A DNA stretch of 41,740 nucleotides, taken from the NCBI GenBank assembly GCA_017624955.1, contig JAGAMA010000021.1, positions 1-41,740 of the forward strand, read 5' to 3'. The notes beneath the pieces were generated by a model. The model was given only the letters and a program-made list of their open reading frames with translations. It made no database searches and was not told where the DNA came from. Numbering within the stretch: position 1 is the stretch's first letter; the number at the start of each line of letters is the position of its first letter. This stretch comes from Alistipes sp. (GTDB lineage: Bacteria > Bacteroidota > Bacteroidia > Bacteroidales > Rikenellaceae). Position numbers and translations under genes: made by a program. Below are positions 10,067-29,880 of the stretch, one piece after another.

Positions 10067-10100
10067 AAAAAATCCATCCGACAACTCGGATGGATTTTTT
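10067..10100 (+). terminator. efp terminator
   Basis: Fifteen-base complementary arms (10067-10081 and 10086-10100) around a CAAC loop, ending in a run of T. Confidence 0.9.
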
Positions 10101-10104
10101 TGTT

Positions 10105-12758: not shown

Positions 12759-12883
12759 GGTGGGATTTTTTGTTTCGTTCCTTGTCTGCAGCTGAGGGTA
12801 ATGACTTTAAGGATATTAACGAAATTAAGGAGATTAAAGAAAATGTTCCTTAATCTCTTTCCTCTTTGCTCTCTCCTCTTTTT

Positions 12884-13414: not shown

Positions 13415-13566
13415 ATAGAAGATAGAAGAGATAAAGAGAGAGCGTCATGCTGAGCAGTAGGCTCAGCATGACGCTCTTCGTTAATATCGTTAATCTCCTT
13501 AAAATCTTTAATCTCTTTATGATCTCTCCTCTTCGCTCTTTCCTCTTTGCTCTTTCCACTTTCCCG
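13378..13566. repeat. Composite intergenic repeat, second copy
   Basis: An AG-rich array (13378-13440, overlapping the GNAT gene 3' end) is followed by a 15-bp perfect hairpin with AGCGTCATGCTGAGC arms (13441-13455, 13461-13475). Then come AATCTCC/AATCTTT-type repeats (13482-13520) and a CT-rich array (13522-13562) up to the stop of the convergent gene. Same order of parts as at 10105-10315. Confidence 0.85.
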
Positions 13567-15243: not shown

Positions 15244-15290
15244 GGTTTTGGAATAATTGTATGCTAATTGGAAATCAAAGGGCGAAAAGG

Positions 15291-15381
15291 GAGTTAAAGG
15301 CAGTTAAAGGTTACTAAAAGATTTTCAACTTTCAACTCTCAACTTTCAACTTTCAACTCTTTACTCTTCGCTCTCTCCTCT
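15291..15381. repeat. 10-bp and 7-bp tandem arrays between DUF4924 and Sel1 genes
   Basis: Three 10-bp units of TTAAAGG type occupy 15291-15320. Five 7-bp units alternating CAACTTT and CAACTCT occupy 15326-15360. A CT-rich run then ends at the DUF4924 stop. In gene orientation (minus strand) the order is stop, AG-rich run, AGTTGAA-type array, CCTTTA-type 10-bp array, then the next start about 50 bp on. Confidence 0.85.
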
Positions 15382-15936
15382 TTACTCTTTAAAAAGGTCC
15401 ACTTCGCCCTTTTCGACCTTGCGGTGCATGGCCGAGAGTTCGGCGATGACGGGCGAGATAAACTCCAGCGTGTCGCTCACGGCCTTGTTCTCCCCATCGC
15501 CCTTGATGCGGTAGAGCATCGCGGCATAGAGGGCACGGAAGCAGAGCTCCGTATCGCTCATGCCGGGCTTGCCCCACACAGCTTGCAGGCGCGGCAGCTC
15601 GGGCTCGAGCTTGGCCACCGTCTTGCGGTAGTGCTCGCCCAAGGGGAGCTTCATGAGTTGCAGGTGCAGATCGTGCAGGTCACGAATCAGGTGCAGCGTG
15701 TGCTCCAGGTGGCCCTTCTCCTCCTTGCCCTCCTCGCGCAGCAGGTTGGCGATATCCATGTACCAGATCAGCGAGGCCGACTTCTGCTGCTCGTCCAGGT
15801 CCTTACGCGGGGCGATCAGGGTCGAGTAGATCGCCTCGGGGCTGAATTGCAGGGCACGCAGCAGATCCTCCAACTGCCAGAGGTAGAGGATGTATTCGGC
15901 GATGTTCTCTTTTCGTTTCGTTACGGCTATATCCAT
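15382..15936 (-). CDS. DUF4924 family protein
   Basis: A 184-residue, almost all-helical cytosolic protein matching the Bacteroidetes DUF4924 family along its full length. Function is unknown. It is rich in Leu, Glu and Lys with no membrane segment or catalytic motif that I recognise. It lies 20 bp downstream of the PiT phosphate permease gene on the same strand and is probably cotranscribed with it. The ending (DLFKE) runs straight into the AG-rich repeat. Confidence 0.75.
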   Translation of the reverse strand: MDIAVTKRKENIAEYILYLWQLEDLLRALQFSPEAIYSTLIAPRKDLDEQQKSASLIWYMDIANLLREEGKEEKGHLEHTLHLIRDLHDLHLQLMKLPLGEHYRKTVAKLEPELPRLQAVWGKPGMSDTELCFRALYAAMLYRIKGDGENKAVSDTLEFISPVIAELSAMHRKVEKGEVDLFKE

Positions 15937-15956
15937 CTTCGTAGGCGCTTTCGGGG

Positions 15957-18167
15957 TTATTTCGTCTCCTCGCGGTGCTTGAGGAAGTACTCTTGCGACT
16001 TGAGCAGGTTGCGCGACTGGAGCACCATGTTCTTCGTCTCGGAGAGAATCGTCAGGTAGAGCATCGAGGCGCGCGTATTGGTCTTCTGCGCATCGATGCG
16101 CGAAAGCTCGGCAAGCATCGCCTCCGAGATGCGACCAAAGAGGTCGTCACGCATCTCCAGCACCGACTCCAGCTCCGTGAAGTCGCCCGAGCGCAGCATC
16201 GTGTTGATCGAGCGGTTGATCTCCTCCACATCGTCGTTGATGGCCATCAGGTCGCGCGTCTCCTCCTGCGAGAAGCCCTCGTGGCAGTTGTCGATGTGGT
16301 CAAAGGCGGGACGGGCGATGTGCAGCAGGGCCTTCGTCACCTCGTTCAGGTAATCGACCACCTGCACATAGTAGTGCGCCGCGTAAATATCGACATGCTG
16401 CAACTTCTTGAGTGTCGGCATGAGGGTATATTTGCGGTCGCGCGAGTGGTAGAAGAGGTTGTTGGCCTCCTTGACCATCGCCTGCAACTCGCTACGGTTC
16501 TCCTTCATGGTGGCAATCAGCGTGCGGTCGTAGATCTTCGTGGCGCGCAACATCGTGTGCTCCACCTCGTCGCGCAACGAGCGGATGGCATCCTGCTGCT
16601 CCTCGGCCTCGGCAGCCTCCGTAACCTCCTCCGCAGGCTTCTTCTTGAAGTTGCTGTGGTAGAGCATCCAGCCGCAGAGCACCGTGACGATGACAAAGGC
16701 GATCGTGCCGCCATAGATCAGGATCAGACCCACGACAAAGGCGATCAGGAAACCACCCAACGCCGTGACGAACCAACCCATGATCACCGTCATCACACCC
16801 GCGATGCGGTACACGGCACTCTCACGACCCCAGGCGCGGTCGGCCAACGACGAACCCATCGCTACCATGAAGCAGACATAGGTGGTCGAGAGGGGCAGTT
16901 TGAGCGAGGTAGCCATGGCAATCAGCATGGCCGAGGTGGTCAGATTGACCGTGGCACGAATCATATCGAACGGAGCACCGCTGTGCTCGATATCCTCGAA
17001 CTCGAAACGACGCTCGATGCGGGCCTGCAGCGAGGCGGGGATGACGCGGTCGATAACCCCCTTGCTGAGCATCGCCACGCGCACGATCGTGCGCGAGAAG
17101 ACCGACGAGTTGGCCTGTGTCGAACCCTCATCCTGCGAGGCGAGCTTCAGCTCGGTCTCGGAGACATGCATCGCCTTCTTCGAGGTCCAGAGGGTAAGGA
17201 GCATGATACCGCCGGCGATAAGCAAGAAGGTCATGTTTGCCGGAATATTCTCAGCCAACGCCCCCATCAGCATCGAGCTGTCGCCCGTTGCCTGGGCAAT
17301 GCGGTAGGCATCGAAGCTGGCTACGGGGACACCGATGAAGTTCACCAGGTCGTTACCGGCAAAGGCCAACGCCAAGGCGAAGGTACCCGAGAGGATCGTG
17401 ATGCGCAGAATATTGACCTTGAAGAGCTGGATGAACCACAGCAGAAGCGAACAGGCAATCCAGCAGACAAAGAGCGAAAAGAGCAGGTGATCACTGATCC
17501 AAAGGATCGTGGGGTGTCCCGCAAGGAGGTTCTTCAGACCCTTGAAGAGGGCGAAATAGACAATCGCCGTGAGCGAAGCTCCGCACCAGAAGGCACCGAT
17601 GCGGCGCAGCATGGGGGCGTAGCGGAACGAGAAGATCGTGCGCGAGATGTACATCACGATCGTACCGCAGGTAAAGGCGATGACGACCGAAAGCAGGATG
17701 GCCGAGACGATACCCAGGGCGCGCGAGGTGTTGATGAACGAACCGAGCGACGAGATCGAGAGGTCGGGGTTACCCGAAATCTTGAAGATCGAGACCGCAA
17801 TAGCCGAGCCTAAAAGACAGAAAATCAGCGATACGGTGGTCGAGGTCGGCAGGCCTAACGAGTTGTAGAGATCCAGCAGAATGATGTTGGCAAACATCAC
17901 ACCCAGGTAGAGAATCATCACCTCGTGAAAGGTAAAGAGCCCGGGGTTGAACATGCCGCTTCGCGCCACCTCCATCATGCCGCTGGAGGTCAAAACGCCG
18001 ATAATGATACCGACCGAGGCAACCGAGAGGATGGTTTTCATCGAGGCTGCGCGCGAACCAATGGCCGAATTCAGGAAGTTCACTGCGTCGTTGGTCACAC
18101 CCACGAAGAGGCCCGAGACGGCCAAGATACCGAGGATGACGACAATGACAGTATAAATTTCACTCAT
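15957..18167 (-). CDS. PiT-family inorganic phosphate permease with PhoU-like C-terminal domain
   Basis: A 736-residue inner-membrane protein. The N-terminal ~500 residues hold about ten to twelve membrane helices with the duplicated PiT signatures GVTNDAVNFLNSAIGSRAA (near residue 23) and FAGNDLVNFIGVPVASFDA in the second half. PiT carriers import metal-phosphate with protons or sodium at low affinity. Residues about 525-736 form a soluble helical region with spaced acidic residues, like PhoU proteins that regulate phosphate uptake. The fusion doubles the usual PiT length but is known in Bacteroidetes. It has a -7 box (minus strand TATATTTG, 18213-18220). Confidence 0.9.
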   Translation of the reverse strand: MSEIYTVIVVILGILAVSGLFVGVTNDAVNFLNSAIGSRAASMKTILSVASVGIIIGVLTSSGMMEVARSGMFNPGLFTFHEVMILYLGVMFANIILLDLYNSLGLPTSTTVSLIFCLLGSAIAVSIFKISGNPDLSISSLGSFINTSRALGIVSAILLSVVIAFTCGTIVMYISRTIFSFRYAPMLRRIGAFWCGASLTAIVYFALFKGLKNLLAGHPTILWISDHLLFSLFVCWIACSLLLWFIQLFKVNILRITILSGTFALALAFAGNDLVNFIGVPVASFDAYRIAQATGDSSMLMGALAENIPANMTFLLIAGGIMLLTLWTSKKAMHVSETELKLASQDEGSTQANSSVFSRTIVRVAMLSKGVIDRVIPASLQARIERRFEFEDIEHSGAPFDMIRATVNLTTSAMLIAMATSLKLPLSTTYVCFMVAMGSSLADRAWGRESAVYRIAGVMTVIMGWFVTALGGFLIAFVVGLILIYGGTIAFVIVTVLCGWMLYHSNFKKKPAEEVTEAAEAEEQQDAIRSLRDEVEHTMLRATKIYDRTLIATMKENRSELQAMVKEANNLFYHSRDRKYTLMPTLKKLQHVDIYAAHYYVQVVDYLNEVTKALLHIARPAFDHIDNCHEGFSQEETRDLMAINDDVEEINRSINTMLRSGDFTELESVLEMRDDLFGRISEAMLAELSRIDAQKTNTRASMLYLTILSETKNMVLQSRNLLKSQEYFLKHREETK

Positions 18168-18212
18168 TGTATGGGTTAATTTTATTCGTTCCTATATGGA
18201 CACAATAGGATA

Positions 18213-18220
18213 CAAATATA
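18213..18220 (-). promoter_or_regulatory. -7 box for PiT gene
   Basis: TATATTTG on the minus strand, 45 bp before the PiT start; no clear -33 element at the usual spacing. Confidence 0.45.
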
Positions 18221-18290
18221 CAGCAACAGCTCCAAATTCGGAAAAAACGGCACCCGATTTAACATTAATTTAACATAGGAGAAGGAAGGG

Positions 18291-18338
18291 GACTAAAGGA
18301 GGCTAAAGGCGACTAAAGGTAACTAAAGGCAACTAAGG
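18291..18338. repeat. 10-bp tandem array (TAAAGG type), five units, upstream of PiT
   Basis: The units GACTAAAGGA, GGCTAAAGGC, GACTAAAGGT, AACTAAAGGC and AACTAAGG are contiguous with an exact 10-bp period. They are followed by a run of eight G (18337-18344). On the PiT-coding strand the units read CCTTTAG. Confidence 0.9.
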
Positions 18339-18357
18339 GGGGGGTAGCACCACGACC

Positions 18358-18460
18358 GGTTTTTCATTTTAGAGGAGCAGATTTGTGCTTAAGCGAAGTG
18401 AGGCGCGGATGGGACGGCTTAAGAAGCCGCTTTTGTGATTGGGTAGTAAGTACCACGACC
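18358..18460. repeat. Partial copy A of the TIR element
   Basis: The left end (GGTTTTTCATTTTAG then AGGAGCAGATTTG) and its flank (CCACGACCG) match copy B. The internal hairpin differs (CGGCTTAAGAAGCCG, 18414-18428) and no right terminal repeat is present, so it looks truncated by or fused to copy B. Confidence 0.65.
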
Positions 18461-18585
18461 GTTTTTTGATTTTAGAGGAGCAGATTTTGTCATGACGAAG
18501 TTCGGCCTGGATGGGACATACTGAACGTATTTCCCATTCAGGCCGGACAAGGAAGGGCGAAAGGTGCCCTATAAAATCGAAAAAC
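18461..18585. repeat. Copy B of a ~125-bp inverted-repeat element abutting the batB stop
   Basis: Terminal inverted repeats are GTTTTTTGATTTTAG (18461-18475) and ATAAAATCGAAAAAC (18571-18585). Inside lies an imperfect hairpin with arms CGGCCTGgATGGGA and TCCCATtCAGGCCG around ATAC...GTAT, then AAGGGCGAAAGGTGCCC. The right end overlaps the last base of the batB TAG stop codon. No coding capacity. Confidence 0.85.
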
Positions 18586-19616
18586 TATTCGCGGAAGATG
18601 TTCAAGTGCCTCAACAACGGATTACGACGGTCGAGGAGCAAAAACTCGATCAAAAGGAGGACTAAAGCGATAGCGACCAGGAGAGGGTACTGCTCGTTGT
18701 ACTCCTCAAAGCGGACGGTGGAGAGCTCGGTCTTCTCCATGGCCTCGATGCTCTGAACAATCTCCTCCAGGCCGATGGACTGGAGGGAGGAGCGGACATA
18801 GAGGCCGTCGGTGAGCTCGGCAATCTGCTGCAACATCTCCTCGTTGAGCTTCGAGACGACCATCTCGCCCTCGACATCGCGGATAAAGTCACCCCCGATA
18901 CGAATCGGAGCACCCTCGGGGGTACCGATACCGATGGTGTAGATGCGGATGCCCATCTCGGCGGCGCGCTCGGCAATGGCGATGGCATCGTCCTCGTGGT
19001 TCTCACCATCGGTAATGAGGATGATGACACGGCTGTGACGATCGCCCTCCTCGAAGCTCTCGCCCGAGAAGGAGAGGAGCGCCTGCTCGAGTGCCTTGCC
19101 CACGGCCGTACCCTGCACGCTCACCAGCGAGGGGTCGATCTTTGCGGCAAAGGCTTTGGCCATGCGGTAATCGGAGGTGATGGGGAGCTGCACCTTCGGT
19201 TCGCCGGCAAAGACTACCAGGCCGACCCGGTCCTGCTTCATCCCCTCGAAGAGTTTGTTGATGGCGTACTTGGTACGCTCCAGGCGGTTCGGGGCAAAGT
19301 CCTCGGCCAGCATCGAGTTCGAGACATCGACCACGAGCATCATCTCGATACCCTCGGACTTCTCCTCCAGGAGCTTCGAGCCGAACTGCGGGCGGGCAGC
19401 GGCCAGGATGAGGAAGAAGAGGGCTGCGAGGAAGAGTAAGAATTTCAGTACAACGCGGCCGTTCGACACCTCGGGCATCAGCTCCTCGAGGGTCGAGAGG
19501 GAGCCAAAGCGCGCCAGGCGGCGACGGCGGAGGCGCATCGCCACCCAAAAGAGGGCCACCAGCAGGGGCAGGGCACACAAGAGCCACAAAAGCTCGGGAT
19601 GGGCAAAACGGAACAT
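18585..19616 (-). CDS. batB: BatB, VWA-domain membrane protein
   Basis: A 343-residue protein. Two N-terminal membrane helices (about 8-28 and 55-75) precede a von Willebrand A domain with MIDAS motif DVSNSM at Asp97 and ITDGENHEDD, and a C-terminal membrane helix near 310-328 follows. VWA domains bind partners through a metal ion, here facing the periplasm. Bat (Bacteroides aerotolerance) proteins pair with a MoxR ATPase and have been linked to oxygen or envelope stress tolerance. It is last in the operon, starting 4 bp after batA. Confidence 0.88.
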   Translation of the reverse strand: MFRFAHPELLWLLCALPLLVALFWVAMRLRRRRLARFGSLSTLEELMPEVSNGRVVLKFLLFLAALFFLILAAARPQFGSKLLEEKSEGIEMMLVVDVSNSMLAEDFAPNRLERTKYAINKLFEGMKQDRVGLVVFAGEPKVQLPITSDYRMAKAFAAKIDPSLVSVQGTAVGKALEQALLSFSGESFEEGDRHSRVIILITDGENHEDDAIAIAERAAEMGIRIYTIGIGTPEGAPIRIGGDFIRDVEGEMVVSKLNEEMLQQIAELTDGLYVRSSLQSIGLEEIVQSIEAMEKTELSTVRFEEYNEQYPLLVAIALVLLLIEFLLLDRRNPLLRHLNIFRE

Positions 19617-19620
19617 AGCG

Positions 19621-20607
19621 TTACGGGATTCGTTTTAAGAGGAGGGTTGCGAGAAGGAACTCGGCCACCAAGAGGGCCAGTGCTCCCAGCACCCACCGTA
19701 GGAACAGTTCGTGATAGATGATGCGCTCCGAGATCTCGACCTTCGACTTTTCGAGCTCGTTGATCTCGTCGTAGATGGCCTTCAGCTTGGCCTTGTCCGT
19801 GGCGCGGAAGTAGCGACCTCCGGTCTGCGTGGCAATGGCCGTGAGGGTCTTCTCGTCGATCTCGACCTTCTGCTGTATAAAGGTCAGCTCGCCAAACATG
19901 TCGTAGGCCGGATAGGGGGCCATACCCTCGGTGCCGACACCGATCGTATAGACGCGGATGCCCTGCGCCTTGGCGATCTCGGCGGCCGTCATGGGGGCAA
20001 TCTCACCGCGGTTATTCACACCATCGGTCAAGAGGATGATGACCTTCGACTTGGCCTCGCTCTCGCGCAGGCGGTTGATCGCCGTGGCCAGGCCGTTACC
20101 AATGGCCGTGCCATCCTCGATCAGGCCACTGCGAATACGGCTCAAGAGGGTCTGCAACGTACCCTGATCGGTCGTCAGGGGCGACTGCGTGAAGGCCTCA
20201 CCGGCAAAGGCCACCAGACCGATGCGATCCCCATAGCGGTCGGCCACGAAGGCGCCGGCCACCTCCTTGGCGGCGGTCAGGCGGTCGGGCTTGAAGTCAC
20301 GCGCCAGCATCGAACCGCTGACATCGATCGAGAGCATGATGTCGATACCCTCCGTATCGGTGTGCGAGAGGCGCTCCACATCCTGCGGACGGGCCAGGGC
20401 GATGATGAGCATCGCAAAGGCCGACACGCGCAACACAAAGGGGAGGTGACGCAGGTAGTAGCGCCAGGTGCGGGGCGCCTTCAGAAGCCCCCTCACGCTC
20501 GAAAACTGAATCGCAGCCCCACCCTGCATCGTGCGCCAAACGTAGTAACCGACGATCGGTACGAGCAAAAGCAGTAGCCAGAGATAGTATGGAGAATGAA
20601 AATGCAT
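19621..20607 (-). CDS. batA: BatA, VWA-domain membrane protein
   Basis: A 328-residue relative of BatB with the same plan: N-terminal membrane helices (about 7-24 and 56-72), a VWA domain with DVSGSM at Asp95 and LLTDGVNNRGE, and a C-terminal helix near 307-325. BatA and BatB are expected to form a membrane complex served by MoxR. It is separated from batC by 224 bp of repeat DNA, whereas the rest of the operon is tightly packed. A separate promoter in that gap is possible, but I saw no clear -7 box. Confidence 0.88.
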   Translation of the reverse strand: MHFHSPYYLWLLLLLVPIVGYYVWRTMQGGAAIQFSSVRGLLKAPRTWRYYLRHLPFVLRVSAFAMLIIALARPQDVERLSHTDTEGIDIMLSIDVSGSMLARDFKPDRLTAAKEVAGAFVADRYGDRIGLVAFAGEAFTQSPLTTDQGTLQTLLSRIRSGLIEDGTAIGNGLATAINRLRESEAKSKVIILLTDGVNNRGEIAPMTAAEIAKAQGIRVYTIGVGTEGMAPYPAYDMFGELTFIQQKVEIDEKTLTAIATQTGGRYFRATDKAKLKAIYDEINELEKSKVEISERIIYHELFLRWVLGALALLVAEFLLATLLLKRIP

Positions 20608-20650
20608 TTCAAATGTAGAATTTAGAATTCAAAATTATTATAGTGTGGCA

Positions 20651-20699
20651 ACCTCAGCAGGCTCAGTGGGCTTCAGTGGGCTCAGCAGGCCCAACTGCC
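20651..20699. repeat. 10-bp degenerate tandem array upstream of batA
   Basis: The units CCTCAGCAGG, CTCAGTGGGC, TTCAGTGGGC and TCAGCAGGCC recur at a 10-bp period. The sequence differs from the TAAAGG arrays, but spacing and position (just upstream of a start codon, next to a TIR element) are the same. Confidence 0.7.
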
Positions 20700-20705
20700 C
20701 CTCCC

Positions 20706-20832
20706 GTTTTTTGATTTTAGGCGAGCAGATTTTGGGCTTTCGAAGTCGGGCGAATTGGGAGCATACTCAAAGGTATGTGACCAATTTCACACGGCAAGAA
20801 AGTGCAAAATGTGCCGCATAAAATCGAAAAAC
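20706..20832. repeat. Copy C of the ~125-bp inverted-repeat element abutting the batC stop
   Basis: The termini GTTTTTTGATTTTAG (20706-20720) and ATAAAATCGAAAAAC (20818-20832) are identical to copy B, in the same orientation. The central hairpin keeps the shape (GCATAC...GTATGT, CCAATTT) with changed bases. The right end overlaps the last base of the batC TAG stop. Confidence 0.85.
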
Positions 20833-21602
20833 TACCAGTTTTTGGTGCCGCGAACGATTACACCCTGCTTCTCCTTCAGCTTCTCCTGCGTGCGGTCCTC
20901 CTGGGCCTGGATGGCATCGAGCATCTGCTGCTGCTCCTGCTCGGAGATACCCTGCTGGGGCTGTTGGGGTTGCTGGGATTCGGGCTTTTGATCCTGGGGT
21001 TTTTGATCACCCTGCTGAGGATCCTGCTTTTGGTCCTGCTTTTGGTCTTTGTTCTGGTTCTGATCCTGCTTTTGGTCGTTCTGACCTTGCTGCTGATCCT
21101 GATTTTGGTTTTGGTCCTGGTTCTGATCCTGGTTTTGGTCGTTGCCACCACCACCCTGCTGTTGCTGATCCTCCAAGAGCTTCTTCGTGTAGGCGTAGTT
21201 GTACTTGGCCTCCATGTCCGAAGGGTTCATCAGCAGCGAATTTTTATAGCTCTGCAGGGCCTCCTGGAGCTTCTGCTGCTTAAACTGCGCATTGCCCAGG
21301 TTGTAGAAGGCCATCGCCCGCTCCTCGCGCGGACGCAGCGAGTCGGCGGCGGCACGCAGCAGGGTCTGCTCCGAAGCCTCGTAGCGCTCCATCTTATACT
21401 CGGCATTGCCGAGGTTGTAGCGCGCCTCGAAGTTGAGCGTATCGGCCGCAAGGGCGTTGCGATAGCGCTCCGAGCTCTGCTCGTAGTTACCCTTGTTGTA
21501 GTGGCGGTTACCGCGACGCACCTCGCGGCGCTCGGGCAGCTGCTGCGCCACAAGGGGCAGCGCCAGCACCAACAACAGGATCGTTAAAAGGGTCTTTTTC
21601 AT
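20832..21602 (-). CDS. batC: BatC, TPR protein with Gln/Asn/Asp-rich tail
   Basis: A 256-residue exported protein. A signal peptide (about 1-19, ending LVAQ) is followed by three or so tetratricopeptide repeats (residues about 28-145; for example RGNRHYNKGNYEQSSERYRN and AFYNLGNAQFKQQKLQEALQ). Residues about 148-225 are an extreme low-complexity tract of Q, N, D, K and P made of (D/N)Q-rich units. The end is a short helix and IVRGTKNW. In described bat operons batC follows batA-batB; here it precedes them. The gene begins 5 bp after the upstream single-pass protein gene. Confidence 0.85.
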   Translation of the reverse strand: MKKTLLTILLLVLALPLVAQQLPERREVRRGNRHYNKGNYEQSSERYRNALAADTLNFEARYNLGNAEYKMERYEASEQTLLRAAADSLRPREERAMAFYNLGNAQFKQQKLQEALQSYKNSLLMNPSDMEAKYNYAYTKKLLEDQQQQGGGGNDQNQDQNQDQNQNQDQQQGQNDQKQDQNQNKDQKQDQKQDPQQGDQKPQDQKPESQQPQQPQQGISEQEQQQMLDAIQAQEDRTQEKLKEKQGVIVRGTKNW

Positions 21603-21607
21603 CTTCT

Positions 21608-22573
21608 TTACTCGTTTTCCTCCGCCTCGGGATCGACCTCGACGGGTTTCGTCTCCTCGACAAAGTAGTAGACCTTCGTGTAGTCCGACTCGTTCTGCTC
21701 GGCCTCGGGGGTAAACTTGGCAAACTTCACCAAATCGGCATCCATCAAGACCGAGGTAAGGTCCATGCGGGCCTTTTCGGGCAGCTCCACCTCGCGCATC
21801 GAGGCGATGATCTCATCCGAGGTCATCTCCATAGCGCCCACGCCCCAGCGACCGGCGATGTAGGTACGCAGGATATCCGTCAGGGTCGAGTAGTAGAGCT
21901 TATGCTTGTTGTTCTGCCACAGCTTCTGGTGGTGGAGCGCCTCCAGCGCCTTAATGGCCACCACATGGGGCGGTTCGGGCGGTGCCGGTTTGAAGAGATC
22001 CTTCAGGTGACGACCGCGCGCCTCAAGGTAGCGGTGCAGGCCATAGAGAGCCAGCGCCAGGAGCACCACGAACAGCAGCCCCCACAGGAGGTAGCCGCGA
22101 ATCTCGGCCAGCTTAAACTTCAAGGTCAGCTGCGGCTTCAGGTCGTAGATCGACTGCGAAGTGGAGTCGATCTGGAAGGTGCCCACCTTCAGCACCAGCG
22201 AGTCGGGGGCATAGAGCGTATCGACAATATTCTTGTCTGCATAGAGCACCCCGGGCTTACCCATGTTGATCAGTCCCTCCTGGAAGGCGGCCAGGCGGTA
22301 GCGCTGGGCGATCTTCAGGCGACGGCCGTCCCGCTCCAGCGTATCCACGGGCATCACCTCGACCAGCTCGATGAGCCCCTCCTTACCGGGGGTAAACTCC
22401 GGGAAGAGGGTGGTCTGCACCAGGTCGCGCTCCACCTCAATCACGAAGTCGAACTGATCGCCGATGAAGAGGCTGTCGGGTTCGATGCGGGCTCTTACGG
22501 TGGGGCGCTCGCTCTGTGCCACGGCAACGAGGCTCAAAAGAGCCATGAGGGGTATAAAGAGCAATCGTTTCAT
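21608..22573 (-). CDS. Single-pass envelope protein of the moxR-bat operon
   Basis: A 321-residue protein with a signal peptide (about 1-19, ending AVAQ). A periplasmic beta-rich domain of about 140 residues comes next (RARIEPDSLFIGDQFDFVIEVERD looks like a BatD-type immunoglobulin-like strand pattern), then one membrane helix near 160-180 and a cytoplasmic helical part of about 120 residues. It resembles the small BatD/DUF4381-like proteins that sit between DUF58 and VWA genes, but I cannot name it firmly. Its start overlaps the DUF58 stop by 4 bp (ATGA), indicating coupled translation. Codons fit the neighbours. Confidence 0.7.
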   Translation of the reverse strand: MKRLLFIPLMALLSLVAVAQSERPTVRARIEPDSLFIGDQFDFVIEVERDLVQTTLFPEFTPGKEGLIELVEVMPVDTLERDGRRLKIAQRYRLAAFQEGLINMGKPGVLYADKNIVDTLYAPDSLVLKVGTFQIDSTSQSIYDLKPQLTLKFKLAEIRGYLLWGLLFVVLLALALYGLHRYLEARGRHLKDLFKPAPPEPPHVVAIKALEALHHQKLWQNNKHKLYYSTLTDILRTYIAGRWGVGAMEMTSDEIIASMREVELPEKARMDLTSVLMDADLVKFAKFTPEAEQNESDYTKVYYFVEETKPVEVDPEAEENE

Positions 22574-23454: not shown

Positions 23455-24452
23455 TAGGGTACAATGACGTTGTTCAGAATATCGGTGATGATCTCCTCCG
23501 AGGTGATGTTCTCGGCCTCGGCCTCATAGGTCAGGCCGATGCGGTGGCGCAGCACATCGTGGCAGACGGCACGCACATCCTCCGGAATCACATAGCAGCG
23601 ACGACGGATGAAGGCGTAGGCACGGGCGGCCTTCGCCAGCGAGATCGAGGCACGGGGCGAACCACCGTAGGCGATGAGCGACTGCAGGCGATCGAGGTTG
23701 TACTCCTTCGGCTCGCGCGTGGCGAAGATGATATCGACGATATACTTCTCGATCTTCTCATCCATGTAGACATCCTCCACGACCTTGCGGGCCTTGACGA
23801 TATCCTCGGGCGAGATGACCTTCTTGACCTCCGGCATACCGGCACCCGAGAGGTTCATGCGCACGATGTCGCGCTCCTCCTGCTTCTTGGGATAGGAGAT
23901 CTTGGCCTTGAGCATGAAACGGTCCACCTGCGCCTCGGGCAGCGGATAGGTACCCTCCTGCTCCAGGGGGTTCTGCGTAGCCAGAACGAGGAAGGGCTGC
24001 GGCAGGGGGTAGGTCTCGTCGCCGAGCGTCACCTGACGCTCCTGCATCGCCTCCAGGAGTGCCGACTGCACCTTGGCCGGCGAACGGTTGATCTCATCCG
24101 CAAGGACGAAGTTGGCAAATACGGGACCCTTCTTGACGATGAAATCCTCCGACTTCTGCGAGTAGATCAGCGTACCCAACAGGTCGGCAGGCAACAGGTC
24201 GGGGGTAAACTGAATACGCGAGAAGTTGGCATCGACGGCCTTTGCCAAGGTCGTGATGGCGAGCGTCTTGGCCAAACCCGGCACACCCTCCAGGAGGATA
24301 TGACCGTTCGACAAGAGGCCGATCAGGAGCGTATCGATCAGGTGCTGCTGACCTACGATCACCTTGCCCATCTCCTGGCGCAGGGTATCGACAAAGACCG
24401 ACTCACGCTCGATTCGCTCATTAAGTTCCTTAATGTTAATGACTTCAGCCAT
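23454..24452 (-). CDS. MoxR-family AAA+ ATPase
   Basis: A 332-residue AAA+ ATPase. Walker A is GVPGLAKT (residues 56-63), Walker B/sensor FVLADEINR, then ATQNPLEQEGTYPLPEAQVDRF with the arginine finger region. MoxR proteins act as chaperone-like remodellers of VWA-domain partners. It is first in a six-gene leftward operon (moxR, DUF58, single-pass protein, batC, batA, batB). A likely promoter is at 24636-24667 with a structured leader of about 180 nt. Confidence 0.93.
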   Translation of the reverse strand: MAEVINIKELNERIERESVFVDTLRQEMGKVIVGQQHLIDTLLIGLLSNGHILLEGVPGLAKTLAITTLAKAVDANFSRIQFTPDLLPADLLGTLIYSQKSEDFIVKKGPVFANFVLADEINRSPAKVQSALLEAMQERQVTLGDETYPLPQPFLVLATQNPLEQEGTYPLPEAQVDRFMLKAKISYPKKQEERDIVRMNLSGAGMPEVKKVISPEDIVKARKVVEDVYMDEKIEKYIVDIIFATREPKEYNLDRLQSLIAYGGSPRASISLAKAARAYAFIRRRCYVIPEDVRAVCHDVLRHRIGLTYEAEAENITSEEIITDILNNVIVP

Positions 24453-24667
24453 AGTAATTCTGTTTTATGTTATCTTTTGTTTATCGTTATTTCATTGTTC
24501 AAAGTTTCCTCGTCGCCTGCGGCGCCGCTTTAGTTTTCATCCACCCCCTAAATCCCCCTCAAGAGGGGGACTTGAATGCCACCCGTGGGGTGGCTATGGG
24601 ATTTCCGTTTCACTTTGGTGAAACGTATGAATTTGCAAATTTATTGTAAAAATCAGAGAAAATCAAA
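24453..24667 (-). promoter_or_regulatory. Promoter and three-hairpin leader of the moxR-bat operon
   Basis: The minus strand carries TTTG (24664-24667), 20 bp, then TAAATTTG (24636-24643), a good promoter. The predicted leader to 24452 contains three hairpins: GTTTCAC/GTGAAAC (24607-24624), GCCACCC/GGGTGGC (24578-24594) and CCCCCTC/GAGGGGG (24554-24569). The last is part of a CCCCTAAATCCCCCTCAAG-type intergenic repeat common in Bacteroidetes. 24668-24784 holds no gene; it probably contains the promoter for the SIMPL gene, which I cannot define. Confidence 0.55.
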
Positions 24668-24784
24668 AAATTATTCATTCGGGGCGTGCAGGAGCTCCGT
24701 GGGTCGATTTTTCATCTAAAACACACGACATCATACGATTTTGCGTTGTTTTTGCGTTGAGTAAGAAACAAACTGCAAACAGCT

Positions 24785-25477
24785 ATGAAAAAGATGATGT
24801 TGGTTTTGGCAGCCCTCATGGTGGTTGCCGCATCGGCCTCGGCACAGCAGACGGAGGCCTTTCCGAGTTATATCGAGGTGACGGGAGTGGCCGAAAAGGA
24901 GGTTGCCCCCAACGAGATCTACCTCTCGATCACGATCAACGAGCGCGATTCGAAGGGGAAAATTTCGGTCGATGAGCAGCAGCGCGAGATGCTTGCGGCG
25001 CTGAAAAAGTTGGGCGTAAAACCCGACTCGCAGCTCAAGATGGTGGACCTGACGAGCAGCTATTTCAAGCGGGGTAACGCGCTGGCTAAAGCGCAGTATG
25101 AGTTGAAGTTAGGATCGGCCGTCGAGGTGGCCAAAGTGTGGCGCGCGCTGGATGGATTGGGCATCTCGCAGGTGACAGTTACGAAGGTCTCACACACCGA
25201 CCTCGAAAAGTTCAAGGCCGAGACCCGCACCGAGGCGATTCGTGCCGCGCGTGACAACGCCCGCGCCCTGGCCGAGGCGATCGATCAGAAGGCAGGAAAG
25301 TGTTTCTGGATTGCCGACTACTCCTCGCCCGTCAGAACGGTTTATGCGGCAGCAAACCTTAAATCGCGCGCCATGGTCGAGGAGGCTTCGTTTGATGCCG
25401 TGGTCGAAGAGGAGGGGCTGGAGTTCCAGACCATCAACCTTCAGCACCGCGTACAGGCGAAGTTTGTCTTGGAGTAA
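24785..25477 (+). CDS. SIMPL (DUF541) domain periplasmic protein
   Basis: A 230-residue exported protein with a signal peptide (about 1-20, ending ASAQ). A SIMPL domain follows, beginning YIEVTGVAEKEVAPNEIYLSI and ending LQHRVQAKFVLE. SIMPL proteins (such as E. coli YggE) are periplasmic or outer-membrane linked, form ring-like oligomers and are tied to oxidative or envelope stress in some bacteria. It is monocistronic and divergent from moxR-bat, so a shared stress theme is possible but not shown. Confidence 0.88.
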   Translation: MKKMMLVLAALMVVAASASAQQTEAFPSYIEVTGVAEKEVAPNEIYLSITINERDSKGKISVDEQQREMLAALKKLGVKPDSQLKMVDLTSSYFKRGNALAKAQYELKLGSAVEVAKVWRALDGLGISQVTVTKVSHTDLEKFKAETRTEAIRAARDNARALAEAIDQKAGKCFWIADYSSPVRTVYAAANLKSRAMVEEASFDAVVEEEGLEFQTINLQHRVQAKFVLE

Positions 25478-25507
25478 GCGAAAAGGTGCAACCAATCAAC
25501 AAAAAAA

Positions 25508-25541
25508 AGCGTGAAAGACTCAACAATCTTTCACGCTTTTT
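25508..25541. terminator. Bidirectional terminator between SIMPL and rlmD genes
   Basis: Eleven-base arms AGCGTGAAAGA / TCTTTCACGCT (25508-25518, 25527-25537), flanked by A-run on the left and T-run on the right, so it can serve both convergent genes. Confidence 0.85.
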
Positions 25542-25559
25542 GCAGTCGGGTGGAATGAC

Positions 25560-26975
25560 TTATTTCGTTCGTCTAACCAATTTCACCACATTCTCCACAT
25601 GGTGCGTGTGGGGGAACATATCCACGGGCTGGACGGCAACCACCTCATAATCCGTATCGAGGATCGCCAAATCGCGGGCCTGCGTAGCGGGGTTGCAGCT
25701 CACATAGACAATGCGGTCGGGCGCGGCACGGCGAATCACCTCCAGCACCGGCTCATCCACACCGGCACGCGGCGGGTCGAGGATAATCACCTCGGGATGG
25801 CCGTTCTCGGCAACGAACTGATCGCTCAGCACATTTTTCATGTCGCCGGCATAGAAGACCGTGTTATCAATCTCGTTCAAGGCCGAATTGACCTTTGCAT
25901 CCTCGATGGCATCGGCCACATACTCGATACCCACCACCTTCTTGCAACGACGAGCGCAGAAGTTGGCAATCGTACCCGTACCCGTGTAGAGGTCATAGAG
26001 GGTGTCGGTCGGCTTCAGATCGGCAAACTCGCGCGCCACTTTGTAGAGCTCGTAGGCCTGCTTCGAGTTGGTCTGGTAGAAGCTCTTGGGTCCCACCTTG
26101 AAGTGCAGCCCCTCCATCTCCTCCAAGATATGATCCTTGCCGTGGTAGAGGATATGATCCAGGTCGCCCGTCGAGTCGTTCCACTTCGTGTTTACGACAT
26201 AGAAGAGCGACGTAATGGCCGGGAAAGAGGCCACCAGGTGGTCGAGCAACGCGCTGATAGCCTCGCGGTTATCCTCGCCAAAGACCACGATGACCATCAC
26301 CTCGCCCGTCGAGGCGGTGCGGATCGTGATGTTGCGCATCAGGCCCGTATGTTCGCGGGCATTATGGAACGTATAACCTTGCTCGAGGCAGAACTTCTTG
26401 ACCGCCTGACGAATCGGATTCGAGGGGTCGCCCTGCAGGTGGCAGTGATCGATATCGAGCACCTTGTCGAACATGCCCGGGATGTGGAATCCGAGGGCAG
26501 GCGAAGCCTCCAGATCGGCACCCGAGGCCACCTCCTCAAAGGTAAGCCAACGGCGATCGGCAAAGGTAAATTCGAGCTTGTTGCGGTAGTAGCGTGTCTC
26601 GGCCGAGGCCAGACAGGAGCGAATCTCGGGCAGGGCCACCTTGCCGATGCGCGTCAGCTGATCGCGCACCTGCTCGGTCTTGAAGCGCAGCTGCTCCTCG
26701 TAGGGCAGGTTCTGCCACTTACATCCGCCGCAGACCCCGAAATGGGCGCAGAAGGGCTCCGAGCGCAGGGGCGAACGCTTCACATAACGCACCACATACC
26801 CCTCCATGAAGCGGCGGCGCTTCTGGCGAATCTGCACATCCACCACATCCCCCGGAACGGTCATCGGAACAAAGACCACCTGCTCGTTCCAGCGACCCAT
26901 TGCCTTACCCTCGGCTGCGAGGGTCGTAATCTCCAAACCCTCTAAAAGAGGGTAGTTGTTCTTCTTTCGTGCCAT
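25560..26975 (-). CDS. rlmD: 23S rRNA (uracil-C5)-methyltransferase RlmD type
   Basis: The start at 26975 (MARKKNNYPLLEG) gives 471 residues. Longer reading frames upstream overlap the divergent promoter and gene. A TRAM domain (about 1-65) precedes an iron-sulfur cluster site with Cys76, Cys82 and Cys85 (CAHFGVCGGC). The SAM-binding motif DLYTGTGTIANF and the catalytic region DPPRAG and SCNP follow. It methylates uracil in 23S rRNA using SAM. RlmC/RlmCD-like specificity cannot be excluded from sequence alone. The -7 box is so close to the ATG that the mRNA should be nearly leaderless. Confidence 0.9.
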   Translation of the reverse strand: MARKKNNYPLLEGLEITTLAAEGKAMGRWNEQVVFVPMTVPGDVVDVQIRQKRRRFMEGYVVRYVKRSPLRSEPFCAHFGVCGGCKWQNLPYEEQLRFKTEQVRDQLTRIGKVALPEIRSCLASAETRYYRNKLEFTFADRRWLTFEEVASGADLEASPALGFHIPGMFDKVLDIDHCHLQGDPSNPIRQAVKKFCLEQGYTFHNAREHTGLMRNITIRTASTGEVMVIVVFGEDNREAISALLDHLVASFPAITSLFYVVNTKWNDSTGDLDHILYHGKDHILEEMEGLHFKVGPKSFYQTNSKQAYELYKVAREFADLKPTDTLYDLYTGTGTIANFCARRCKKVVGIEYVADAIEDAKVNSALNEIDNTVFYAGDMKNVLSDQFVAENGHPEVIILDPPRAGVDEPVLEVIRRAAPDRIVYVSCNPATQARDLAILDTDYEVVAVQPVDMFPHTHHVENVVKLVRRTK

Positions 26976-26983
26976 AAGTGGTG

Positions 26984-27011
26984 CAAAGATAACTAAATTT
27001 TCATATCTTTG
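26984..27011. promoter_or_regulatory. Face-to-face -7 boxes for rlmD and the MBL hydrolase
   Basis: TATCTTTG occurs on the minus strand at 26984-26991 and on the plus strand at 27004-27011, only 12 bp apart. Each promoter therefore lies in the other's upstream region. The rlmD start codon is 8 bp from its box; the MBL start is 18 bp from its box. Confidence 0.7.
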
Positions 27012-27029
27012 TGCAAAATAAAAGCGAGT

Positions 27030-27698
27030 ATGAAAGTTGCAACCCTTATCTTCAACCCCATCGGGGAGAATACATACGTCCTGTGGGACGAAACGCTGGA
27101 GTGCGCCATCGTCGATTGTGGTGCTTCGACCCCGACCGAACAGGCTACGCTCGATAACTTCATCGCGGAGCATGGGCTGAAGCCCGTCCTGGCGGTCAAT
27201 ACCCACGGCCACTTCGACCATGTGCTGGGTGTGAACCACCTGAAGCGCCGCTACGAGATCCCCTTCGCCTGCTCCGCGAAGGATCAGTACCTCTTGGAGG
27301 GCGCTGCCGCCGCAGGTAACATCTACGGCATTCCCACCGCCGACATGCCCTCGATCGATATCGACCTTGCAACGACCGAGGAGGTAAAGTTCGGCCAAAC
27401 GACCCTCCAAGTGATCCCCACCCCGGGCCATACGCCGGGCGGTGTAACGCTCCTCAACGCCACGGAGAAGGTAGCCTTCACGGGCGATACGCTCTTCCGC
27501 GAGTCGATCGGCCGCACCGACCTCGAGGGGGGCGACTACCCGACCCTGATGCGCTCGATCCTGGGCAAGCTCCTCGCGCTGGGCGATGAGGTGAAGATTT
27601 TCCCCGGCCATGCCGAATCTTCGACCATCGGCCACGAGTCGATGTACAACCCCTTTGTGGTGGAGGCGCTGCAGGATCAGATAAACTATAAGCAGTAA
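27030..27698 (+). CDS. Metallo-beta-lactamase-fold hydrolase (glyoxalase II-like)
   Basis: A 222-residue cytosolic protein with the metal motif THGHFDH (His59, His61, Asp63, His64), later [25 protein letters not shown] and [11 protein letters not shown]. This set of motifs is typical of YcbL/glyoxalase II-like hydrolases that act on thioesters such as S-lactoylglutathione. The true substrate is unknown, as Bacteroidota largely lack glutathione. It starts a rightward group with trmD 5 bp downstream. Confidence 0.9.
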
Positions 27699-27703
27699 GC
27701 AAC

Positions 27704-28381
27704 ATGAGAATCGATATAATTTCATCCGTTCCGGATCTGATGACCTCGCCCCTCAACGAGTCCATTTTGCGCCGTGCGCAGGACAAGGGGCTGGTGGAGA
27801 TCGTGGTGCACAACCTCCACGATTGGGCACACGACAAGCGCAAGACGACCGATGACTACCCCTTCGGAGGCGAGGCGGGTATGGTGATGAAGTGTGAGCC
27901 GGTCTTTGAGCTCATCGAGCACCTGCAGTCGGAGCGACACTACGACGAGATCATCTACACCTCGCCCGACGGCATCCGCTACGACCAGCACGAGGCCAAC
28001 CGCCTCTCGACGCTCGAAAACATCATCATCCTCTGTGGCCACTACAAGGGGATCGACCACCGCATCCGCGAACACCTCATCACGCGCGAAATCTCGATCG
28101 GCGACTATGTGCTGACGGGTGGCGAGCTGGCCGCCTGCATCATTGCCGACTCGGTGGTGCGCCTCGTACCGGGGGCGATTGGCGACGAGTCGTCGGCCCT
28201 GACGGATTGTTTCCAGGATAACCTCCTCGCGCCACCGGTCTATACCCGTCCGGCCGAATTCCGCGGTTGGCGTGTCCCCGATGTGCTGCTCTCGGGCAAC
28301 TTCGGCCAGATCGAGAAGTGGCAGGACGAGATGGCCTACGAGCGCACGAAGCAACTCAGACCCGACCTGTTGGAAGAGTAA
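27704..28381 (+). CDS. trmD: tRNA (guanine-N1)-methyltransferase
   Basis: A 225-residue SPOUT-class enzyme that makes m1G37 in tRNAs to prevent frameshifting. Features are the N-terminal [13 protein letters not shown], the insert [13 protein letters not shown], and the trefoil-knot SAM pocket [10 protein letters not shown] with [14 protein letters not shown]. It lies 5 bp after the MBL gene. It is not linked to rpsP or rimM as in many bacteria. The stop codon (GAGTAA) merges into an AG-rich array. Confidence 0.96.
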
Positions 28382-28480
28382 AGTGAAAAGAGCAAAGAGA
28401 AGAGAAAAAAGATGAAAAATTCCCTTTTCGCCTTTCACACCCTTTACGCCCTTTAACAACCTTTAGCAACATTTATCCCC
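28382..28480. repeat. AG-rich run and 10-bp array between trmD and lpxB
   Basis: AG-rich sequence (28382-28415) starts at the trmD stop. Five units with CCTTT at 10-bp spacing (28431-28477) follow, ending 28 bp before the lpxB start. No hairpin core in this copy. Confidence 0.85.
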
Positions 28481-28504
28481 CCATTAGCACCAAACCAAAA
28501 CACC

Positions 28505-29638
28505 ATGAGATATTATCTGATCGTGGGAGAGCCTTCGGGCGATCTGCACGGCTCAAAACTGATTGAGGGGCTGAAGAAGGCCGACCCGAAGGCGGAATTT
28601 CGCTTTTGGGGCGGTGATCTGATGGCTAAGGCGGGAGGAGAGGCCAACCTGGCGAAGCACTACCGCGAGACCTCGTTTTTCGGCTTTGCGAATGTGCTGA
28701 AGAACCTCGGTACGATTCGTCGTCAATTCGGGGAGTGTCGGGCCGATGTGAAGGCATTCAACCCCGATGTGCTGATTCTGATTGACTACCCGGGCTTCAA
28801 CCTCAAGATGGCCAAGTGGGCCAAGAGGGAGGGGATCAAGGTCTTCTACTACATCGCCCCCAAGGCGTGGGCCTGGAAGGAGCATCGCGTGAAGCAGATC
28901 AAAAAGTATGTCGATAGGCTCTACACCATCTTCCCCTTCGAGACGGCGTGGTTCGGGCAGTTCGGCATCACACCGACCTTCTGCGGCAACCCCCTCTCGG
29001 ACGATATCGAGGCCCGTCGCACGACGCTCCTCACGCGCGAGGAGTTTATCCGCAAAAACAACCTCGACAACCGCCCGATTGTCGCCTTAGTGGCCGGTTC
29101 GCGCGTGAACGAGATTAAGGAGAACCTGCCCGACATGGTCGCCCTCTCGAAGCGCATGCCCGAATACCGATTTATCGTTACGGCCGTGCCATGGCTCGAC
29201 AAGGCGCTGTATGAGCAATACCTGGCCGGCTCGGAGGTCTGCTACCTCTGCGACCAGACACAGCAGACCCTCTCGGTAGCCGAGGCGGCGATCGTCACTT
29301 CGGGTACGGCAACCCTCGAAACGGCACTGATGGGGATTCCCGAGATGGTGCTCTACCACATCCCGAAACTCTATGAGGTGTTGCGCCCCTATGTGCTGAA
29401 GATTCCCTACGTCTCGCTCGTCAATATCAACTTGGGGCGCGAGGCCGTGAAGGAGATCGTCTGCGCCAAGGTCGAGCAGGAGGCTGCCGAACGGGAGTTG
29501 CGTGCCATTCTGCCCGGAGGCGAGAAGCGAGAAAAGATGCTCGAAGACTTTGCGGAGCTGCGCTCGATTATCGGCGGCGCAGGAGCCAGCGACCGCTTCG
29601 CCGAAGCCATGGTAAAGGAGTTGAAAGTTGAGAGTTAA
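28505..29638 (+). CDS. lpxB: Lipid-A-disaccharide synthase
   Basis: A 377-residue GT-B glycosyltransferase (family GT19) that joins UDP-2,3-diacylglucosamine to lipid X to form the lipid A disaccharide, on the inner face of the inner membrane. It begins MRYYLIVGEPSGDLHGS, with YYIAPKAWAWKEHR, LVAGSRVNEI and VTSGTATLETALMGIPEMVLY as clear family marks. The final residues (ELKVES) are encoded by a 7-bp minisatellite that continues past the stop. Confidence 0.96.
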   Translation: MRYYLIVGEPSGDLHGSKLIEGLKKADPKAEFRFWGGDLMAKAGGEANLAKHYRETSFFGFANVLKNLGTIRRQFGECRADVKAFNPDVLILIDYPGFNLKMAKWAKREGIKVFYYIAPKAWAWKEHRVKQIKKYVDRLYTIFPFETAWFGQFGITPTFCGNPLSDDIEARRTTLLTREEFIRKNNLDNRPIVALVAGSRVNEIKENLPDMVALSKRMPEYRFIVTAVPWLDKALYEQYLAGSEVCYLCDQTQQTLSVAEAAIVTSGTATLETALMGIPEMVLYHIPKLYEVLRPYVLKIPYVSLVNINLGREAVKEIVCAKVEQEAAERELRAILPGGEKREKMLEDFAELRSIIGGAGASDRFAEAMVKELKVES

Positions 29639-29880
29639 AAGTTGAAAGTTAAAGAGGAAAGAGCAAAGAGATAACTTTGCGATTAAGGCGAGCGCACACG
29701 CTTGCGTGATGCCGAGCCGGAGCAACCGACGCTGCGGAGCGAGAGCAAAACCAAACTCGTTTGGGTTTTGCCAAGCCGCGAGGAGGAAACGTAAAGCGTA
29801 AAGTCAAGCCACCGAAGGTGGGTTAAAGAGGAAAGTGTTTGCTCCCTTTAATCACCCTTAGCCACCTTTAGAAACCCTTA
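29619..29880. repeat. Composite repeat region between lpxB and FAH gene
   Basis: Five 7-bp units (AGTTGAA, AGTTGAG, AGTTAAA, AGTTGAA, AGTTAAA) at 29619-29653 overlap the end of lpxB. Then come an AG-rich run (29651-29672) and a hairpin-rich core (about 29685-29825; for example CACGC/GCGTG, and GCAAAACCAAAC facing GTTTGGGTTTTGC). A short AG run follows, then a 10-bp CTTTA/CCTTA array (29846-29880), six bases before the next ATG. No gene is present in this ~250 bp. Confidence 0.85.

Follow-up and report, generated by a model that had tools for sequence, protein, structure and literature searches.

Why do unrelated genes of one bacterium share tandem arrays of short units in the gaps that separate them? 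The question is raised by a 41,740-nucleotide stretch of Alistipes sp. DNA (the window; contig C10 of G000, an assembly of 2.1 Mb in 42 contigs), in which arrays of 7- to 10-bp units lie between neighbouring genes. The initial annotation of the window read these arrays as a grammar directed at gene starts, with an AG-rich, AGTTGAA or palindromic module at a stop codon and an exact 10-bp array reading CCTTTA before the next start. The comparisons described here lead to a different reading. The arrays are probably the arms, or the surviving single arms, of hairpin-forming insertion elements located at gene boundaries, and the copies in the window would be elements without a cargo gene.

Detection of the arrays

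Arrays in the window were located with Tandem Repeats Finder (TRF) combined with reading of the sequence. Four kinds are abbreviated throughout: T10, the 10-bp CTAAAGG/CCTTTAG array; G7, the AG-rich 7-bp array of the AAGAGGA type; A7, the AGTTGAA array; and C9, the array of the CAGTGGGCT type. Pairs of arrays are described by the letters R, for the purine-reading array (CTAAAGG), and Y, for the pyrimidine-reading array (CCTTTAG). T10 was sought throughout the 2.1-Mb genome as the exact dimer CTAAAGGN3CTAAAGG with the reversed pattern as control, and its placement was scored for 72 arrays in the regions around 100 of the 106 dimers found. Fuzzy arrays with up to two mismatches were counted in a 442-kb sample (400 kb plus the window) and compared with dinucleotide-shuffled gaps and reversed patterns. 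The gene caller was a simple one; it overlooked a gene next to trmD and put some starts in the wrong place, and the gap types given below are therefore approximate.

Dispersal and orientation of the arrays

The 106 exact T10 dimers stand against 0 for the reversed pattern, and all 25 of the 10-bp arrays in the 442-kb sample lie in gaps, compared with 0.4 after shuffling of the gaps and 1 when the pattern is reversed. The view of the initial annotation that the arrays are a genome-level feature common to unrelated genes is borne out by these counts. Arrays of other families also occupy gaps in the sample, namely AAGAGGA (10/16), AGTTGAA (6/8), AATTAAG (17/18), GGAGATTAA (7/10), and CAGTGGGCT (6/6). 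Reversed patterns are equally common for AGTTGAA (8 vs 8), nearly as common for AATTAAG (14 vs 18), and present for CAGTGGGCT (2 vs 6), so the counts for these three families are weak evidence when taken alone.

The 72 T10 arrays are distributed over same-strand (29), convergent (22), and divergent (9) gaps, with one in a called coding sequence and 11 at the ends of the pieces scored. The 29 in same-strand gaps divide into 17 that read CCTTTA and 12 that read CTAAAGG (p=0.46); no more than 150 bp separates 16 of them from a start (17 with the corrected start of ORF 13567-15243) and 18 from a stop. A general sense-strand CCTTTA orientation and a bias toward starts are therefore both absent from same-strand gaps. 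The initial annotation had named the lack of position and strand bias as the outcome that would tell against its scheme, and the counts come close to that outcome. With both orientations in use, and with convergent and divergent gaps also occupied, a grammar directed at starts was dropped.

The arrangement that does hold is one of inversion. Among 21 pairs of T10 arrays that neighbour one another within 150 bp, 19 are RY, one is YR, and one is YY (p=4e-10 against random orientation), which indicates that many arrays are arms of hairpins. The arms of RY pairs are 0-66 bp apart, and RY pairs account for 38 of the 72 arrays. The three T10 pairs examined in a related genome, G033, are all inverted; pairs from other array families in G000 are few (6 RY, 1 RR, 1 YR). 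The order is thus a purine array followed by a pyrimidine array, identical on both strands, as a hairpin gives, and a purine module after a stop with a pyrimidine array before a start would be the appearance of a hairpin that fills a gap. The particular succession of stop, AG-rich array, AGTTGAA, and CCTTTA recurs in G033, in the gap orthologous to C36:60615, and fails as a general stop-to-start rule. Predicted folding separates the two classes of gap between 60 and 450 bp, with a mean z of -5.56 for those with modules (n=33) and -2.58 for those without (n=80; p=1.6e-7). T10 arrays also lie within about 400 bp of the starts of G000 contigs C2, C3, and C14, and such repeats may break the assembly.

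Turnover between related genomes

The elements differ sharply between close relatives. G024, the sister genome (the genome of locus L051), has an LpxB that is 97% identical and harbors a single T10 dimer compared with 106 in G000. The numbers of dimers elsewhere are 135 in G033, 48 in G087, 10 in G008, 8 in G020, 1 in G011, and 0 in G088, and none were detected in the 24 genomes drawn from the order's other families. G033, which is given as 91% complete, yielded no LpxB match.

Differences are also seen at fixed junctions. The gap between trmD and lpxB contains a G7-T10 element in the window, a short AT-rich sequence in L051, a terminal inverted repeat (TIR) element in L052, and 2-23 bp in L057, L060, L061, and L062. 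Of 354 gaps in the sample, 126 were matched to G024 and 87 to G033, with elements that are present, absent, or rearranged. At C36:135209, G000 has a T10 hairpin and G024 a terminator only. At C33:56858, a TIR element and differently arranged T10 arrays are present in G000 and G033, and neither is present in G024. At C36:37703, G000 and G033 share nested arrays that differ in unit number, and G024 keeps only repeats of the AATTAAG type.

Short cargo genes of the TIGR02436/PF05635 family

In two relatives (L068 and L072), the trmD-lpxB gap holds an open reading frame (ORF) for a four-helix-bundle protein between inverted 7-bp arrays. The genus was consequently searched for PF05635, and the flanks of the ORFs were scored for inverted repeats. 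The search gave 32 matches over the cut-off, 27 of them with loci, of which 26 were scored for flanks and one, L211, was inspected separately. The 26 include one gene of the longer suffix form described below (L210) and three sets of near-copy proteins (L186 with L189-L191; L187/L188; L193/L194). Control genes for this and the suffix tests were taken from the window's genome, with a GC content of about 56%; the composition of the relatives may differ from it, and a shuffled-flank test was therefore added. In 21 of the 26 loci the score for inverted flanks is above the 99th percentile for 352 control genes, and 21 of 26 are likewise positive against shuffled flanks at p<=0.01; L211 has no inverted arrays, which brings the overall figure to 21 of 27. 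By eye, the arms are mostly of 7-bp units, among them GTTAGCC, GAGTAGT, AATTCAA, AATTCAC, AATTAGT, and AAAGTGA, and the arms of L206 consist of an AG-rich AAGAGCA unit, as in the window.

The association extends beyond the genus. PF05635 scores above the cut-off in 105 of 149 genomes of the order. Two of the 30 order-wide loci (L223 and L234) were excluded for internal stops, and 22 of the remaining 28 have inverted flanks, 19 of the 28 being positive against shuffled flanks. The best period is 7 or 8 in 20 of those 22, where the value refers to the 5' arm and is weak in some loci (0.44-0.46).

A complete element of this kind separates G024 from the window at a single junction. Between a metallo-beta-lactamase (MBL)-fold-like gene and trmD, G024 carries a 467-bp element with inverted 7-bp arms around the gene for L208, a protein that matches TIGR02436 (E=4e-27) as well as PF05635 and is related to the solved structure 2rld. 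Sequence comparison places the same junction of the window at 27699-27703 on the plus strand, 5 bp from the stop of the MBL-fold-like gene to the trmD ATG (27704), and 17 of the 20 relatives in which the junction could be measured have a distance of -4 to 18 bp. The three long junctions among the 20 are L051 (G024 itself), L056, and L072; the last two measure about 1.04 kb and about 0.76 kb and probably contain another ORF. By eye, no target-site duplication is evident at the G024/G000 junction, the one junction inspected. The MBL-fold-like gene (27009-27698, plus strand) is the one missed by the gene caller, and its label comes from reading the protein rather than from a family search; the opposite ORF that overlies it (25560-27725) is probably overextended. 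A link to a short TIGR02436 form within G000 was considered and rejected, as the only two PF05635 matches there are weak and both match the suffix protein.

Long cargo genes of the TIGR04258 suffix family

The weak PF05635 matches are proteins of ~183 amino acids, and the four that were scanned score for TIGR04258, the 'four helix bundle suffix domain', and for TIGR02436. Loci were available for 30 of 46 matches in the genus, and all 30 were scored. Compared with the 99th percentile of controls, 19 have inverted repeats in their flanks, 17 have direct repeats, and 23, as counted by hand, have either (controls, 7/350). The corresponding numbers against shuffled flanks are 18, 18, and 24 of 30. 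Upstream, 28 of the 30 loci have a best period of 9 or 10. Periodicity alone is a weaker signal, exceeding the 95th percentile upstream in 18 and downstream in 9 of 30, and in both flanks in 6 of 30 compared with 0 of 350 controls. No arrays are present at L131/L289 and L211, suffix loci outside the scored set.

Two suffix genes of G033 lie beside dispersed repeats. One, beside a gene labelled groES from reading, has four tandem T10 hairpins just upstream, each of about 95 bp by eye. The other has CTTAAGG hairpins on both sides, with three more in ~170-bp tandem repeats nearby, and CTTAAGG dimers number 110 in G033, 13 in G000, 1 each in G024 and G008, and 0 in the other 57 genomes. No suffix match was found in G024, which is almost free of T10.

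Unit type also clusters on the protein tree. Unit labels were assigned by eye before a tree of the 30 suffix proteins was built, and 13 of the 30 rows, with a unique, uncertain, or absent unit, were left uncounted. The five unit types with at least two rows each need 4 changes on the tree, which is the minimum, and none of 200 shuffles is as low. In the largest group, that of TCCCTAAAT, a neighbour gene is common to the two members of 15 of 36 pairs, so part of the clustering reflects ancestry at one locus. Three groups share no neighbour gene (0/5 pairs), and the CTWAAGG pair shares one (1/1).

Copies in the window

The arrays described next were found with TRF and the array scans unless stated otherwise. 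Three adjoin on the minus strand: a T10 pyrimidine arm with sense CCTTTA upstream of ORF 13567-15243 (15286-15320), an A7 purine arm (15323-15358), and a G7 array of AAGAGTA/AAGAGGA at the stop of the DUF4924 gene (15356-15391). The composite (15280-15391) folds with z -3.2. The ORF, which had been labelled Sel1, has no Pfam match at E<=0.001. Further along the minus strand, a T10 pyrimidine arm with sense CCTTTAG (18286-18338) occupies the gap upstream of the phosphate transporter gene. Between this array and the stop lies, by eye, a TIR element resembling a miniature inverted-repeat transposable element (MITE; TTTTTCGATTTTATAG...CTCTAAAATCAAAAA) together with a second, partial copy (18345-18584), and elements like it also occur in C33 gaps. 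A TIR element of the same kind, again identified by eye, lies at the stop of the TPR (batC) gene (20706-20831, minus strand), next to the C9 array of 9/10-bp CAGTGGGCT-type units (20651-20699, minus strand); the region 20640-20831 folds with z -3.2. This C9 array, located between batC and batA, had been described as an exact 10-bp repeat. TRF reports 11% indels and a 9-base consensus, the steps are a mixture of 9 and 10 bases, and similar units elsewhere in the sample have period 9. Sites resembling the TTTTTNGATTTTA ends of the TIR family, with up to one mismatch, number 18 in the 442-kb sample, 7 in the G024 stretches, and 9 in the G033 stretches.

On the plus strand, a G7 purine arm of AAGAGAA units at the trmD stop (28374-28419) is followed by a T10 pyrimidine arm, a 10-bp CCTTTAACAA array, before lpxB (28431-28477). 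The next gap carries AGTTGAA (29619-29654) and then AAAGAGC (29651-29670) arrays, and a T10 pyrimidine arm, a 10-bp CCTTTAGCCA array (29845-29880), that ends 6 bp before the next ATG (29887); both features of this gap were also read in the sequence. The last six codons and the stop codon (29636-29638) of lpxB, at 29619-29638, fall within the AGTTGAA array, and the gene thus ends in sequence provided by the element. The 10-bp, AGTTGAA, and AG-rich arrays are all present where the initial annotation had placed them, and they are above chance.

Whole inverted elements, without assigned strand, occupy two convergent gaps. One consists of a G7 arm, a 9-bp array, a GTCATCCTGAG hairpin core, and an inverse G7 arm (10105-10317; z -9.4 for 10100-10317), and the other of a G7 arm, a hairpin core, a 9-bp array, and an inverse G7 arm (13375-13564; z -9.1 for 13375-13566). 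The cores inside the inverted arrays of these gaps are GTCATCCTGAG and CGTCATGCTGAGC (10186-10272 and 13447-13475). A 9-bp TTAAGGAGA array followed by an inverse G7 array is present at 12807-12881 on the plus strand. The window contains no tRNA genes and nothing that reaches Rfam gathering thresholds.

Alternative explanations

Ordinary intergenic minisatellites could arise by slippage in AT- or AG-rich spacers and be excluded from genes by selection, with inversion and cargo as secondary features. Slippage has left its trace, as two adjacent T10 spacers are the same in 36 of 224 comparisons, where 5% would be expected. The difference in unit number between G000 and G033 at C36:37703 and the weak folding of several elements agree with such an origin, and the accessible text of one report describes heptamer arrays that vary between strains mostly by 7-nt steps (PMC4679880). 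However, slippage yields no inverted partners such as those of 19 of the 21 T10 pairs, and neither the dispersal of one unit to dozens of loci nor the restriction of flank repeats to two gene families is explained by it. The junction that is filled in G024 and empty in G000 points to insertion of a whole element, albeit between species. On this evidence, minisatellites of the ordinary kind are an unlikely explanation.

Hairpins could have evolved at gene ends to terminate transcription or to process 3' ends, and modules are indeed commoner in convergent (15/32) and same-strand (24/87) than in divergent gaps (3/34) of at least 40 bp in the 442-kb sample; several modules also fold strongly. Judged by eye, though, T10 arms have no U run, and the GC hairpin with U run of an intrinsic terminator is not what they present. 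A separate hairpin with a T-run stands beside the element at C36:86216, C36:117258, C36:131252, C36:135209, and C33:70739, nine of the 72 T10 arrays are in divergent gaps, and G024 does without such elements at several junctions. An origin as terminators is accordingly quite improbable.

In 49 T10 arrays, core positions 3, 4, 6, and 7 carry 1.2-1.7 bits and positions 1, 2, and 5 carry 0.4-0.9 bits, while the spacer positions carry, in order, 0.01, 0.12, and 0.40 bits; the core values are inflated, because a unit was admitted only if 4 of its 7 core positions matched. The conserved inner core, the nearly free first two spacer positions, and the 10-bp phase agree with the initial suggestion of a contact repeated every helical turn, but the weaker core positions, the occurrence of periods 7, 8, and 9 in the same architecture, the lack of any orientation or distance preference for starts, and the near absence from G024 make phased sites for a nucleoid-type or regulatory protein on the CTAAAGG core a highly improbable explanation.

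Several observations weigh against hairpin-forming insertion elements as well. No partner arm was detected for 34 of the 72 T10 arrays, arms are missing from 6 of the 27 genus PF05635 loci, and no cargo gene was seen in the window. Folding is weak relative to shuffles at the trmD-lpxB (z -1.7) and lpxB-FAH (z -1.8) gaps and no better than shuffles at 12795-12883 (z -0.6), and the T10 arm at 18286-18338 does not fold alone (z +1.2). The arms of the full G024 TIGR02436 element pair in the predicted fold, and the element as a whole (z -1.6, 20 shuffles) is not beyond shuffles. The groES-side suffix gene of G033 has hairpins on one side only, with none downstream, and fails both flank tests. Of the suffix genes in G000, the one on C15, at a contig end in a matching groES neighbourhood, has a different purine unit, and the one on C21 is without arrays. 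G008 has 10 T10 dimers yet no suffix match, and G020 has 8 dimers and one suffix gene with another unit. The TTCCCAGGTN unit of G079 is confined to the surroundings of its gene, where all 14 dimers lie, and has no dimer in 60 other genomes. On the tree, the two CTWAAGG rows are separated by rows with other units and are therefore not sisters, which makes this pair weak. The absence of elements from G024 could be due to loss there, and neither transposition nor a transcript was observed.

Proposed mechanism and comparison with known systems

If the arrays are arms of insertion elements, as we favor, an element would consist of a tandem array of 7-, 8-, 9-, or 10-bp units, a core, and an inverse array of the same kind, placed between adjacent genes. 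The full-length relative would carry a TIGR02436/PF05635 four-helix-bundle gene of ~120 amino acids between inverted 7/8-bp arrays or, alternatively, a TIGR04258 suffix gene of ~183 amino acids flanked by 9/10-bp hairpin arrays. Every copy in the window would lack cargo, and several would be nested or stacked. Unit numbers would shift by slippage and whole elements would turn over at fixed junctions. Binding of the cognate hairpin, either by the protein itself or, as with the related Avd, by a partner (for instance a reverse transcriptase), may aid the movement of copies, and gene boundaries may be occupied because insertion is least damaging there. What the comparisons demonstrate is the inversion of the arms, their position between genes, the differences between species at a given junction, the association with the two gene families, and the grouping of unit type on the protein tree; recognition of the hairpin by the protein and mobility of the elements are inferred.

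REP palindromes, where REP stands for repetitive extragenic palindrome, reportedly have a GTAG/CGTC tag at their foot. In the accessible text of their description, genes for REP-associated tyrosine transposases (RAYT) have REPs in their flanks and seem to coevolve with these repeats (PMC2817692). The elements described here resemble REPs, their mosaic assemblies (bacterial interspersed mosaic elements, BIME), and RAYT genes as presented there in their hairpins scattered between genes, cognate repeats around a gene, hairpins in tandem next to a gene (L286), a repeat type that clusters with the protein, and large differences in copy number between close species. T10 in G000 is a high-copy intergenic palindromic repeat, and one suffix gene of G033 is flanked by cognate, dispersed repeats, unlike that of G079, whose unit is not dispersed. 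In contrast, the flanked proteins are TIGR02436/TIGR04258/PF05635 four-helix bundles and not HUH tyrosine transposases (a RAYT elsewhere in the genome was not searched for), and the arms are tandem arrays of 7-10-bp units where a REP, as described, is a single short palindrome (PMC2817692).

A second model is the intervening sequence (IVS) of 23S rRNA. The ends of the Coxiella IVS, according to the portions of the report available, are complementary; it contains an S23 ORF, preceded by heptamers that vary between strains, and is cut by RNase III (PMC4990558). The same PF05635 family and heptameric repeats of strain-variable number before the ORF (GACAGAT in the IVS) are shared with it (PMC4990558). 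Full elements in relatives (L208) contain an ORF of the S23/IVP type, and none was seen in the window copies. Complementary ends are found in the flanks, although the one whole element folded is, as noted, within shuffles. Unlike an IVS, the elements lie between protein-coding genes at the junctions examined and not in rRNA helices; rRNA genes were not searched. Neither REP/RAYT, for which the protein is wrong, nor the rRNA IVS, for which the place is wrong, fits as a family, and both serve as models.

Two further types of repeat are similar in part. TAACTGA heptamers form direct repeats in Beggiatoaceae, cyanobacteria, and some Bacteroidetes, and their intergenic arrays are, as here, sporadic among close relatives (PMC4679880). 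They are described as direct and, in the main species, mostly near starts, and the accessible text names no inverted arms around a cargo gene (PMC4679880). The 10-bp arrays, the only class compared in this respect, are not forward direct repeats just upstream of starts and occur in both orientations and all gap types. BrickBuilt, a MITE with a minisatellite from Porphyromonas gingivalis, is likewise intergenic, from the Bacteroidales, and built of inverted ends and a tandem repeat, but its 23-bp tandem unit lies inside the element and not as arms, with no cargo gene named in the text available (PMC4596501). The searches of the open-access literature listed no previous account of TIGR02436/TIGR04258 elements that lie between genes and have tandem inverted arms.

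PF05635 is similar to Avd, without which diversity-generating retroelements do not retrohome, according to the accessible part of one account (PMC10053308). A broader proposal, advanced tentatively, is that TIGR04258 with 9/10-bp arms and TIGR02436 with 7/8-bp arms, together with their cognate hairpins, constitute a mobile system that resembles REP/RAYT but lacks its own transposase. One unit would be recognised by each clade and carried to gene boundaries, perhaps in RNA form with the aid of a reverse transcriptase in trans, as with Avd in diversity-generating retroelements, and rRNA intervening sequences would be elements of the same kind caught in rRNA genes.

Significance

Insertion elements of this kind would explain much puzzling intergenic sequence in the genus, which could be mistaken for regulatory motifs. 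The structure of a PF05635/S23 protein has been solved (2rld), and in the literature consulted, as far as its accessible text goes, no function is established for the family; the repeats that bracket its genes give it a testable role. Tandem-armed inverted repeats around PF05635/S23 genes may link rRNA intervening sequences, Avd proteins, and intergenic repeats that have so far gone unexplained.

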